Shown: in pieces, positions 7,134 through 16,608 of the stretch | Layout of the letters: each line of letters opens with the position of its first letter | Position numbering within the stretch: position 1 is the first letter of the stretch | From: a virus | Virus record (IMG/VR): IMGVR_UViG_3300011114_001008 | Span: 1 to 22,578 of that record | Reading direction: 5' to 3' (one strand) | DNA: 22,578 nucleotides | Program-made: the position numbers and the translations under genes | The notes under the pieces: generated by a model | What the model was told of the DNA's origin: nothing | Databases searched by the model: none | The model's input: only the letters and a program-made list of their open reading frames with translations

Positions 7134-7370
7134 TTATTTGTACTTACTATTTATGGCGTCTGCTTCTTTCTTCTGCCTTGAATTTTCTTTTTTGACGTAA
7201 TCCATCAAGAGAGCGACATATATTTCCCTCTCCCATGGCAGCATCTCATTGAGTTCCGTGAGGCTGTATCCATGCCGCTGCGCCATCTCAAAATTTACCG
7301 TGTAGTGATTGACGAGCGTATCATGGGAGAGGCCTATACGAAAAAACTTTGCAATCCAGATAGAGTGATC
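7134..7370 (-). CDS. 51: gp51-like tail assembly protein, probably made as a gp26-gp51 -1 frameshift fusion
   Basis: The minus-strand frame is open from 7370 to TAA at 7136-7134 and overlaps the end of gp26 in the -1 frame. From the slip site it encodes 68 residues with a hallmark MLPWEREIYVALLMDYV segment and a Lys/Glu-rich helical tail. This resembles gp51 of T4-like phages and the C-terminal part of many tail-assembly chaperones. The frame has no ATG, GTG or TTG before the Met of FEMAQRHGYS. Independent initiation would therefore give only about 50 aa and lose the N-terminal part. Frameshifting at 7340-7346 would give a 305-aa fusion. The tape measure gene follows, as in lambda G-T-H order. 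Confidence 0.75.
   Translation of the reverse strand, partial: DHSIWIAKFFRIGLSHDTLVNHYTVNFEMAQRHGYSLTELNEMLPWEREIYVALLMDYVKKENSRQKKEADAINSKYK
7148..7155 (-). promoter_or_regulatory. Late-promoter-like CATAAATA upstream of the tape measure gene
   Basis: The minus strand reads CATAAATA, 7/8 to TATAAATA, 20 bases before the ATG at 7127. A second 7/8 match, TACAAATA (7135-7142), lies seven bases before the ATG. Both are inside the gp51 frame. Either could drive the tape measure gene separately. Confidence 0.4.
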
Positions 7371-8050
7371 TTATGCTTAACCTTGCACTTAGGACATGTA
7401 TATTCCAAATCTTTAGTTAAGCGCGGAAGAGATTCGATGTAAGCCTGAATCTTCTGAAGGTGTGGAGTCGAGAGCGAATCGATAAATGTAGAGAGTTCCT
7501 CGACCGTATGATCTTCCACGCGATATACGCCATTCTGATCGAAGATCGATTCCATCGACGCTATGATCATTGCTGTAATTTGATCACCTTTCGTTTTACT
7601 TTCAACATTCAAGCGGCCTAGAGTTCGCACAGACATAGGACGCAAAGTCATGCCAACTTTATCGGTTAGCTGAACATTATTACTGACGTGTGCTCCAGAA
7701 GACGTAGGTTCGATCGAATCGAGATCGATCGAGGCATTTATCGATCCGGTACATTCTGTATCCAGGCACTTCAACGTAACCGACGAGATCTCACCGACGG
7801 ACTTACAACGGAGTTTGAGAAAGATATATTCAAGATCAACGGTTGTGAGATCATCTGGATTGACTTTATCGAATGTGCAAGCGCGAATGATATCCTTGAT
7901 GGCCACGATCATTTGCTTCTCGTCATGCGATTCAATTGCAATCATGAGGATCTTTTCCTCTTTGACTAGGTAGGGACGAATTTCAATCGATTTCCTGCTC
8001 GACGGAATTGTAATCGTATATTTAGGCGTTTCAAGCGTGGGTAGTAACAT
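7334..8050 (-). CDS. 26: gp26-like baseplate hub / tail assembly protein
   Basis: It has 238 aa (T4 gp26: 208). The segment SIEIRPYLVKEEKILMIAIE (21-40), followed by a helical region with AIKDIIRACTF, is typical of the T4 gp26 family. The end carries CPKCKVKHKITL (219-230) and LSGLQSFFV. Two Cys pairs, C95-x4-C100 and C219-x2-C222, plus C82, could bind zinc. It lies between a tube-like protein and gp51/tape measure, the position of the lambda G chaperone. The slippery site just before its stop suggests that both a short form (gp26) and a long form (gp26-gp51) are made. gp26 is annotated as a baseplate hub component in T4; a chaperone role for the tape measure is my inference. Confidence 0.82.
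   Translation of the reverse strand: MLLPTLETPKYTITIPSSRKSIEIRPYLVKEEKILMIAIESHDEKQMIVAIKDIIRACTFDKVNPDDLTTVDLEYIFLKLRCKSVGEISSVTLKCLDTECTGSINASIDLDSIEPTSSGAHVSNNVQLTDKVGMTLRPMSVRTLGRLNVESKTKGDQITAMIIASMESIFDQNGVYRVEDHTVEELSTFIDSLSTPHLQKIQAYIESLPRLTKDLEYTCPKCKVKHKITLSGLQSFFV
7340..7346 (-). other. Predicted -1 ribosomal slippery heptamer T-TTT-TTC
   Basis: On the minus strand the last codons of gp26 are AGT TTT TTC GTA TAG. T TTT TTC fits the X-XXY-YYZ rule, and both tRNA-Phe re-pair perfectly after slipping to TTT TTT. The -1 frame continues directly into gp51. The zero-frame stop comes two codons after the slip site. No strong downstream hairpin is obvious by eye. Confidence 0.7.
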
Positions 8051-8123: not shown

Positions 8124-8687
8124 TTATAGTCCTTGCTTTGCCAAGTCCAGGATGCTATAATCGTAATATGAAAATGTAACACTGAGGCTATGAACCGCAT
8201 CGGTTGAACCGCCATCCAATTCCAGATCACTTATACCTGTAGGAAAGGCATGATTGAGCTTGACTCCATAGATTATATCTCCAGACTCATTGAGTTGATA
8301 GATCGTTATCGTTGAAGAATACTCATTGCGATATAGCAAACGATATGATTTACTATCTATTGACTTATCGATCCATTTATCGAATAGATTTTTGGGAAAA
8401 AAGTCATTGCCAAGCAGGAACTTGCACTCAACTTTATCATATGAGTATCCACTTGGGATTGCAAAAGAGTGACGCTGAGCACCATCGTAATCGGTCACGT
8501 CGATCGCACGCGTGGGTAGCGATGCGCTCTGGCACATGATAGACAGATCTTGCATATCCCTAGGATCAGCCACACCTGCAGGCAAAGAGAATTCAACTAG
8601 AAACTGCGTAGGCTTAGCTAAGCCTTTTCTCTTGATGATTGTCGCTTTAAGCGTATCAATCAATCCACTAGTGTCATTATCTGGCAT
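8124..8687 (-). CDS. Tail tube protein of the gp19/gp54 family
   Basis: This 187-aa protein is near the 163 aa of T4 tail tube gp19. It shows the pattern typical of tube-fold proteins in T4-like phages: KPTQFLVEFSLP (25-36), an RDMQDLSIMCQSASLPTRAI segment, DYDGAQRHSFAIPSGYSYD, F...F..WID, and a C-terminal AFPTGISDLELDGG...LSVTFSYYDYSIL. Such proteins stack as hexameric rings. It may be the main tube, or a tube-initiator paralogue (gp54-like); the main gp18-gp19 pair is usually adjacent, and no sheath gene is in this window. It starts six bases after a late-promoter-like box. Confidence 0.72.
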   Translation of the reverse strand: MPDNDTSGLIDTLKATIIKRKGLAKPTQFLVEFSLPAGVADPRDMQDLSIMCQSASLPTRAIDVTDYDGAQRHSFAIPSGYSYDKVECKFLLGNDFFPKNLFDKWIDKSIDSKSYRLLYRNEYSSTITIYQLNESGDIIYGVKLNHAFPTGISDLELDGGSTDAVHSLSVTFSYYDYSILDLAKQGL

Positions 8688-8693
8688 AATTCT

Positions 8694-8701
8694 TATTTAT
8701 G
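8694..8701 (-). promoter_or_regulatory. Late-promoter-like CATAAATA before the tube protein gene
   Basis: The minus strand reads CATAAATA (7/8 to TATAAATA), ending six bases before the ATG at 8687. The spacing resembles that at the exact plus-strand boxes. It overlaps the end of gp4 and would give a tube/gp26/tape-measure transcript. Confidence 0.5.
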
Positions 8702-9152
8702 CTGTCAGTATTCGAATGCCTAAATTTTTCAATGAAATTTCTGTCCAGACTTGAAAGATCCATCCTTGACTCTTGGCATACTCATCGGCGGCTTCCCACT
8801 TAGATATATTCTTAGCATAGTTCATTACCTCGATTATGTATTTACGAGTCTTACGCTTGGGTTGAATCGGCGGTATAGTTTGAGACTTGGGCTTGATCTC
8901 GATCAGGTAGGTATTCCCATTGGCCATCTGAAGCTTCAGATCGATGAAATATCGATGCATCTTTCCATCGGTCTTGCACATGTAGGGAATGACTGTCTCC
9001 TCGGAACACCACTTAACGACTTCAGTATTTGTATCACACCATTTAAACGTAACTCTCTCCCATAAGCTTCGATGTATTATATTAGTCGGATCTCCTTCAT
9101 ATTTTGAAGGATTCCGCGGAATATATTTTCCACTGTAGAAGTGATTGCTCAT
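8697..9152 (-). CDS. 4: gp4-like head completion protein with PD-(D/E)XK nuclease motif
   Basis: It has 151 aa against 150 in T4. FYSGKYIPRNPSKYEGDPTN near the N-terminus matches the FKGKYRPKNPxKYxGDPTN signature. The nuclease core is visible: Glu32 in SLWER, Asp71 in YFIDLKL, and Glu85-x-Lys87 in LIEIKPKSQ. This is the TnsA-like PD-(D/E)XK arrangement. gp4 acts in head completion before tail joining. The ATG has GGAG six bases upstream, one of the only Shine-Dalgarno-like sequences in the window. In T4, gene 4 is next to 53 on the same strand; here it heads the opposite-strand block. Confidence 0.92.
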   Translation of the reverse strand: MSNHFYSGKYIPRNPSKYEGDPTNIIHRSLWERVTFKWCDTNTEVVKWCSEETVIPYMCKTDGKMHRYFIDLKLQMANGNTYLIEIKPKSQTIPPIQPKRKTRKYIIEVMNYAKNISKWEAADEYAKSQGWIFQVWTEISLKNLGIRILTA

Positions 9153-14070: not shown

Positions 14071-16608
14071 ATGGCACAACCGGTTTTAAACGCAACAGAA
14101 CTCGATTTCGATCAGATTAAAAGTAATCTAAAGGCGTATTTCCTACGTCAAGAATCTCCAATTAAAGATTGGAATTACGATGGCTCTGGTCTTAACATGC
14201 TTCTAGATGTATTGGCTTACAATACGCATTACAATGCTGTCTTGGCCCATTTAAACTTGAATGAGAGTTTCATCGATACGGCACAGCTTCGCTCTTCGGT
14301 AATCTCTCTGGCTAAGTTGCTTGGATATGTTCCAAGATCAATCGGCGCGGCAAGTGTAAATGTTACAGCTACATTTACAACGTCCGGAACTATAGGCTCT
14401 ACTGATACTCTGATTATTCCAGCTGGTGCTAAGTTCAATGGAACATCTCCGGCCGGATCTTTTACATTCATTACTCCATATAGCACAACTGTAAATGTGA
14501 CAAGTGGAAGTAATAGCTTCGCTGCCAATCTTTCTTTGATTCAAGGTGTGTTTCGTTCTCAGACATATCAGGTCGATAATGCTTTGGCCAATCAGCGTTT
14601 TACGATTGATGATGATTCGGCAGATATATCCACTCTGAAAGTAAGCGTATTTCCAAATCAAAATACCACAAATCCCATTCCTTATTTTCCTATTTCGACT
14701 TACATTGGAAATAGTGGAAAGGATGATATCTCCAATGTGAGTGGCATTTCTCAAATCTACTATCTTTCACTTAATTCGAGTGGCAAATATGATGTTACCT
14801 TTGGCGATGGTGTACTTGGTCAGCCGCTGAATAATCTTAGCGTTGTTCAACTCACATATCTTTCAACACTAGGTCCTGTGGCAAATAACGTTTCGCAGTT
14901 TACCTATGCCGATGAAACGCTAGAAGCGAGTAATGGCGAGCCAATAACAGATACCACTATAGCAGCTTTGACATATTCCACCGGCGGATCTGATCAGGAA
15001 TCAACCGAATCGATTCGCATCAATGCTCCGCCATCTATGATTGCACAAAATCGAGCCGTCACGGCCCTCGATTATATTGCTATCCTTCAAAAGCAAAATC
15101 CTGAAATTATTACCTCGAGCGTGTGGGGTGGAGAAGATGAGGTCACATATGATCCGATTAACGCCGCGCGATTTGCCGGAAAGGTTTTTATCTCATATGT
15201 GACCAAAGAAGGTCAGCCTCTCAATTCGATCGACGTCATCGCACGTCTGATACCATTTAAAGTAATGTCGGTGACTCCGATATACTATGCTCCAGACGTC
15301 GTCAATATCGTTTTAAAGATCGATGCCAAATTTAATCCTAATCAAACTACAGTAGGTTCGACAGACCTGGCAATCGTGATTGGAAAGATCGTTGATGCAT
15401 ATAAGAGTAATTCGGTTAAACGTTTTACAGATGTATTTCGTCACTCGAATCTCCTGCGTCAGATCGATACCTCCGATCCTTCTATCTTGAATTCGGACAT
15501 GCAGGTTTCTTTCTATAAAAATTATTTTCTCAATAAGCTAACAGGGGCAGGCGATGTTAGCTTATATGGCACTCAAGCTCTTCCAAATGGATTGGTGACT
15601 ACATTTGGAAATGCCTTATATGGTACCATGAATCAAACCACTCCCATGCTGACGTCATCGGGATTTGCCCTTTCATCCGTATTGAACTCACCGCAGACTG
15701 AAATTAAAGTGTTTGGAACATTTTCAACCAATTCCACTACAGTCTATCTTTCGTCTAGCCCGGGTACATCTACTTCGGCGCCGAATAATATTACGAACCC
15801 ATACTTAGTTGTCGGATCTGCGGTGATCACAGGTACCAATTCGGGTGGATTTTCTACAAGCCGCGCGGCTATAATTTCGTCAATCAACAACCTGGGGAGC
15901 TATTCAATTCTGACATTGAATACCGTATCAACCGTTACATCCTCTTTATTCGCTGCAGGAGGTTCTACGCTAACCATCACTCCGCCTGGAGGCACCTTCT
16001 ATCTTAAAGATGGACCCGATCCTGAATCGACTACCACTCGAAAGTTGTTCATGTCGACCTACTCGACCAACATAATTGCCTCGGATCCAAAATATGTTTC
16101 TACTGGATCGGATATTCACATTGGCACAGTATATCCACTGACTGGAAAGGTTGAATTGTATACGTATATCACCGGACAGGTTAGCAGTCAACCCATCCCT
16201 GGATATACTCTCGTTGATACAAACTCGGGCGCGCCGGCCGGAATGGCCGATAAAAACTGGTTAACCAATCAATTTACGTCATGTTCTCTGGCTATCGTTG
16301 CAGGTAGTGGTGTTGGACTATCGGCCGTGATTACGACAAATTCTGCCGATCAACTGAATTGGGCTAGCCCGTCCATTCTCTTGGATGCCACGTCGCGCTA
16401 CACTATTATTCGCTCTGTCATCGACACTAGCAATACTAGCTCAAATATACAAATTTATTCGCGCCCGGCTTCAAATGATGTGGCTCCGAGTCGACATCAG
16501 ATTCTATCCATTTCAAGTGCCGTTATTACGGCAACTGCAGATACTTTTGCTCAGTCTGGTGTCCTTGGTGCAAAAGCATATACAACCTTCTCTCGAGATC
16601 CTCAATAA
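14071..16608 (+). CDS. 6: gp6-like baseplate wedge protein
   Basis: gp6 dimers form the inner ring of the baseplate. The first 110 residues carry the strongest family signature: LDFDQIKSNLKAYFLRQ, WNYDGSGLNMLLDVLAYNTH, YNAVLAHLNLNESFIDTA, LRSSVISLAKLLGYVPRS. Residues 250-430 hold YYLSLNSSGKYDVTFGDGVLG, NRAVTALDYIAILQKQNPEI and VFISYVTKEGQPL, also typical of gp6/J-like wedge proteins. At 845 aa it exceeds T4 gp6 (660). The extra part lies mainly after residue 530 and is Ser/Thr-rich and beta-like, possibly a surface domain. The TAA is two bases before the next ATG. Confidence 0.94.
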   Translation: MAQPVLNATELDFDQIKSNLKAYFLRQESPIKDWNYDGSGLNMLLDVLAYNTHYNAVLAHLNLNESFIDTAQLRSSVISLAKLLGYVPRSIGAASVNVTATFTTSGTIGSTDTLIIPAGAKFNGTSPAGSFTFITPYSTTVNVTSGSNSFAANLSLIQGVFRSQTYQVDNALANQRFTIDDDSADISTLKVSVFPNQNTTNPIPYFPISTYIGNSGKDDISNVSGISQIYYLSLNSSGKYDVTFGDGVLGQPLNNLSVVQLTYLSTLGPVANNVSQFTYADETLEASNGEPITDTTIAALTYSTGGSDQESTESIRINAPPSMIAQNRAVTALDYIAILQKQNPEIITSSVWGGEDEVTYDPINAARFAGKVFISYVTKEGQPLNSIDVIARLIPFKVMSVTPIYYAPDVVNIVLKIDAKFNPNQTTVGSTDLAIVIGKIVDAYKSNSVKRFTDVFRHSNLLRQIDTSDPSILNSDMQVSFYKNYFLNKLTGAGDVSLYGTQALPNGLVTTFGNALYGTMNQTTPMLTSSGFALSSVLNSPQTEIKVFGTFSTNSTTVYLSSSPGTSTSAPNNITNPYLVVGSAVITGTNSGGFSTSRAAIISSINNLGSYSILTLNTVSTVTSSLFAAGGSTLTITPPGGTFYLKDGPDPESTTTRKLFMSTYSTNIIASDPKYVSTGSDIHIGTVYPLTGKVELYTYITGQVSSQPIPGYTLVDTNSGAPAGMADKNWLTNQFTSCSLAIVAGSGVGLSAVITTNSADQLNWASPSILLDATSRYTIIRSVIDTSNTSSNIQIYSRPASNDVAPSRHQILSISSAVITATADTFAQSGVLGAKAYTTFSRDPQ

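Follow-up and report, generated by a model that had tools for sequence, protein, structure and literature searches.

The stretch of DNA analysed here, which is referred to as the window, is an IMG/VR virus record of 22,578 bases with a T4-like gene content. Profile matches point to a gp59-like helicase loader, a gp32-like protein, a gp4-like head closure protein, a gp19-like tail tube protein, gp26 and a tape-measure protein. The gp4 head-closure homologue (phrog_218; 8697-9152, minus strand) also matches PF08722, the TnsA-like endonuclease N-terminal domain (2.3e-18). The features in the neighbourhood of gp26 are listed in Table 1, together with the gp26-family loci of a Campylobacter phage that serves for comparison.

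Table 1. Position of the gp26 region features in the window and of the PF12322 loci of a comparison phage
Feature	Position	Strand	Evidence
Tail tube protein (gp19-like), next gene upstream of gp26	8124..8687	-	phrog_45, E 3.8e-33
gp26 ORF, predicted short chaperone form (TAC-N / "G"), 238 aa	7334..8050	-	PF12322, phrog_150, AF2 model
Predicted slippery heptamer T TTT TTC; 0-frame codons TTT TTC, -1 frame TTT TTT	7340..7346	-	
gp26 0-frame stop TAG, one codon past the heptamer	7334..7336	-	
-1-frame extension, gp51-like C-terminal domain (TAC-C / "T"), 68 aa + stop	7134..7340	-	
Tape-measure protein, 770 aa	4815..7127	-	phrog_4372 tail length tape measure, E 1.5e-11
PF12322 loci of Campylobacter phage vB_CjeM_WX1	L101 1856-2596; OP654737.1 37520-38260 and 47105-47734		

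On the minus strand, gp26 ends with ...CAA AGT TTT TTC GTA TAG (7348-7334), and the heptamer on which the original prediction was built can be read directly in this end. The motif alone is not rare, TTTTTTC being present nine times on the two strands of the window. A -1 slip at the heptamer would yield ...LQSFF followed by RIGLSHDTLVNHYTVNFEMAQ...MLPWEREIY..., a product of 237 + 68 = 305 aa with its stop at 7134; the predicted junction peptide of this gp26-gp51 fusion is LQSFFRIGLSHD. The tape-measure ORF starts only 6 nt past the extension stop, in line with the claim that it follows at once. It had also been proposed that the -1 frame has no start codon before its middle. There is indeed no ATG, GTG or TTG in this frame ahead of the ATG at 7286, which is 60 nt past the heptamer and opens a 50-aa ORF, but roughly one quarter of the 68 residues, and not half of them, precede this ATG. 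The arrangement is that of a G/GT-type gene: a short ORF is overlapped by a -1 ORF without its own start, a heptamer of the type X_XXY_YYZ, conserved among relatives, lies near the end of the short ORF, and the whole is located between the tail tube and tape-measure genes.

The gp26 protein belongs to the PF12322 (T4_baseplate) family, with an E of 3.1e-54 and 184.4 bits against a curated cut-off of 24.5, and matches phrog_150 in a profile search (E 5.4e-59). One PF12322 copy is found in the window record, which is a 22.6-kb fragment only. The extension, which had been called gp51-like on account of its MLPWEREIY stretch, matches the gp51 family phrog_634, "baseplate hub assembly catalyst" (E 3.6e-24). 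It matches the gp26 family phrog_150 as well, at the C-terminal end of that profile (positions 235-277). Furthermore, a profile of the fusion aligns with the in-frame gp51 of T-even-type phages over 242 columns, co-linearly across the junction (E 7.9e-21). In a model of the T-even gp51, built from only 7 sequences (pLDDT 83.8), the counterpart of the extension is a helical C-terminal domain; a fold search with this model gave no informative match.

A sequence search of solved structures revealed no relative of gp26. Its AF2 model (pLDDT 94.6) has as top matches, over the first ~90 residues, exactly the three solved structures 3FGX (Z 7.7, 85 aligned residues, 3.9 A), 2OB9, which is HK97 gp13 (Z 7.5, 83 aligned, 3.9 A), and 3KLU (Z 7.1, 85 aligned, 4.0 A), all of which are named as phage tail assembly chaperones (PMC9603447). 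The next unrelated structure follows at Z 2.5. Since Z remains under 8, the match is one at the level of the fold; Foldseek alone ranked the three structures weakly. Structure prediction, which had been proposed as a check for gp26-gp51, thus connects gp26 with known tail assembly chaperones.

If the slip site has a function, it should be recognizable in other phages, and a comparison of gp26/gp51 junctions had been proposed for this reason. Relatives were collected by gp26 similarity alone, to which a few named phages were added from gp51 matches, so the heptamer itself was no selection criterion. In a first scan, T TTT TTC or T TTT TTT stands beside the gp26 stop in all 80 IMG/VR loci as well as in the window, and the -1 frame always encodes gp51. 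Four scans, together with named phages and isolates, brought the number of loci to 185. Of these, 177 have gp51 in the -1 frame; the remaining eight are T-even-type or Campylobacter phages, loci where the examined stretch gave no gp51 match, and a close relative of Stenotrophomonas phage Moby (L108, discussed below). Clustering at 80% protein identity gave 71 clusters. In 67 of these, an in-frame T TTT TTN immediately precedes the stop codon of gp26, and gp51 lies in the -1 frame. The four clusters without the heptamer are all Ackermannviridae, so that outside this family it is present in 67 of 67. Elsewhere in the same genes, in-frame TTTTTTN occurs five times at 15,139 other codon positions. 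In an unannotated Desulfovibrio phage, 7757 (L100, around 2501), the junction likewise reads T TTT TTC and the -1 frame encodes a gp51-like domain.

The conservation concerns the nucleotides. In the 67 clusters, the codon before the slip is AGT, TCT, AAT, GAT, GCT, ACT or CAT and never a C-ending synonym. The residue before the two phenylalanines can be S, N, D, A, H or T, six amino acids in all, and its codon always ends in T; the first Phe codon at the slip is TTT in every cluster with the heptamer. A T-ending codon is used whichever residue is encoded, a pattern of selection that acts on the nucleotides and not on the protein. The probability of these codon choices, calculated from each gene's own codon usage, has a product of 10^-39.7, which is not a true p-value because of the shared ancestry of the genes.

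Signals that might stimulate slippage are less pronounced. No convincing stimulator was found in the window, where the downstream fold has a z of 0.07 and the Shine-Dalgarno-like pairing an energy of -3.1 kcal/mol (34th percentile). For the set of clusters, the mean downstream fold z of -1.2 represents a weak excess of structure. In 57% of clusters, the Shine-Dalgarno-like pairing is among the lowest 10% of gene windows; this signal, about 8-12 nt upstream, is modest and, across the set, stronger than under synonymous resampling (p 1e-4).

In current annotations, gp51 is a separate small protein with its own start, which would be produced by termination-reinitiation. Many cyanophage records contain such a gene, some relatives (KVP40, Moby, RL2RES and P-SSM2) have an ATG at or just past the gp26 stop, and in the window the 50-aa ORF would suit a protein of this kind. 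However, in 49 of the 67 clusters the stretch that begins upstream of the slip and ends 21 nt past it is free of ATG, GTG and TTG; an ATG is found within these 21 nt in ten clusters and a GTG or TTG in two more, while six have an upstream start. Moreover, the residues ahead of the first Met are conserved in the -1 frame: over the first 19 codons past the slip, changes at -1-frame positions 1, 2 and 3 number 1506, 1063 and 3204, and this third-position variation indicates that the -1 frame is translated ahead of any start codon. Taken together with the missing starts, it implies that ribosomes must enter from gp26. The heptamer nucleotides are kept even in relatives that do have an ATG. In ACG-2014e, S-CAM1 and ACG-2014d (L082-L084) there is no start codon near the slip, and the public records leave the region unannotated, with a gap of ~180 nt over the gp51-like extension. 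A separate gp51 is therefore a very unlikely general solution. Nevertheless, where an ATG lies close past the slip, as in the ten clusters, or where there is an upstream start, a free gp51 may also be made, for example in KVP40.

Two further explanations ascribe the second frame to the T run itself. Such a frame break, which here sits in a run of six T, could be an artefact of sequencing or assembly in a homopolymer. In L108 (a 99% relative of Moby) the run is reduced to five T and the frame relation is broken, as a result of either a sequencing error or a mutation; errors or mutations thus do occur at this run. For the family, however, an error is rejected and hardly conceivable, since the same break and heptamer are shared by 67 clusters from many sequencing projects, complete isolate genomes included. 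RNA polymerase, instead of the ribosome, could also slip on the 6-7 T of the site. Such a run is short for polymerase slippage, and the conservation fits exactly the codon phase of a tandem slip, T TTT TTN, including the TTTTTTG variant of RL2RES, which makes this possibility very improbable, if somewhat less so than an error.

On the basis of the layout, the conservation of the slip site, the missing starts, the similarity in fold and the homology to a natural gp51, gp26 and the gp51-like segment are very probably one chaperone gene that is read in two ways by a predicted -1 slip. We infer that slippage occurs, how frequent it is and that the products act as chaperones. Most ribosomes would stop at TAG and produce the short chaperone gp26. 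A minority would move back by one base on U UUU UUC, where two tRNA-Phe can re-pair with UUU UUU, and continue to the 305-aa form with its helical C-terminal domain of 68 residues. If the analogy with lambda gpG/gpGT holds, the tape-measure protein may be coated by many short copies, and few long copies may recruit tail tube subunits; the lambda mechanism on which this model is based is summarised in PMC5009743.

With lambda gpG/gpGT and the P2-type chaperones (Xu, Hendrix and Duda 2004), the locus shares a -1 slip site close to where the short ORF ends, a C-terminal extension without its own start, a position directly before the tape measure and an N-domain fold of the same class, as in HK97 gp13. 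It differs in that gp26 is larger (238 aa), has an extra C-terminal part and has T TTT TTC as slip run, and the likeness is one of layout and fold.

T4 itself has another solution. Its gp51 matches PF12322 with residues 1-201 (3.9e-52), while its C-terminus matches the 68-aa segment, and T4 gp26 and gp51 are similar to each other in a two-sequence comparison (2e-6). T4 gp51 is thus a paralogue of gp26 with the same C-terminal domain, so that in T4 the long form has a gene of its own. The end of T4 gene 26, GAG TTC TTT GAG TTA CTA TAA, has no slip site; the two phenylalanines are kept as TTC TTT. The proposal that the T4 "hub" proteins gp26 and gp51 may be a G/GT pair, with its frameshift mechanism, is well supported but has to be corrected in one respect: T4 does without frameshift here, gene 51 providing the long form. 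The two genes are divergent in T4 and tandem in RB43. Two PF12322 copies are found in T4, Aeromonas phages 31 and Aes508, RB43 and a Krischvirus, and one in complete genomes with the heptamer. The long form of the T-even phages has most simply arisen, we presume, by a duplication in place of the frameshift. Campylobacter phage vB_CjeM_WX1 resembles T4 in having the two-gene solution: some 9 kb separate its two PF12322 genes, and one of them continues in frame into the gp51 domain.

In the Ackermannviridae, a single PF12322 gene is overlapped by a gp51 C-domain in the -1 frame, but the heptamer is lacking. In most of them, gp26 ends with GA[AG] ATT TTC ATT TAA; the sequence at the stop is TAATG in Dickeya JA15 and Vibrio 1.244.A, and TAATT in Kuttervirus and close relatives. 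Since the single gene and the -1-frame domain are kept while the heptamer is lost, these phages could have a third way of producing the long, or the C-terminal, form of the chaperone, a possibility that we regard as slightly more doubtful than not. For example, ribosomes might initiate at an AUU or AUG that overlaps the stop and so make a free C-domain, or a non-canonical slip might take place. At most of the Ackermannviridae loci (L091, L093-L095 and L201-L215), a terminator-like hairpin is situated right after the gp51-like ORF.

The chaperones of T4-like phages were identified by Vladimirov, Gautam and Davidson (2022, Virology 566:9-15), as cited in PMC12846349 and PMC10274946. As far as can be judged from the papers that cite this work, it is credited with poly-T -1 slip signals in TAC-N genes of T4-like phages (in a 2025 paper) and with a short gene and a fused long gene in some of these phages (in the PRFect paper). 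Their TAC-N/TAC-NC genes are, as described there, the same genes with the same conclusion, and the window represents a further uncultivated phage. The link between gp26/gp51 and the G/GT chaperones put forward in the original prediction is hence right but had already been published. The present analysis adds a large independent comparative test of that idea. In the abstract of the earlier study, frameshifting is reportedly said to be conserved in several groups of T4-like phages, T4's own not being among them.

Cyanophage gp51 was described as being without the first ~200 residues of T4 gp51 (Sullivan et al. 2010, PMC3037559), and T4 as an exception to G-T frameshifting (Atkins et al. 2016, PMC5009743). 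Both the apparent absence of these residues and the seemingly exceptional position of T4 would be explained by the two ways of encoding the long form, an explanation that follows from the published idea. The "hub" labels of gp26 and gp51 in many T4-like genomes would hide a tail-assembly chaperone of two forms, the second of which is mis-annotated or omitted in many records.
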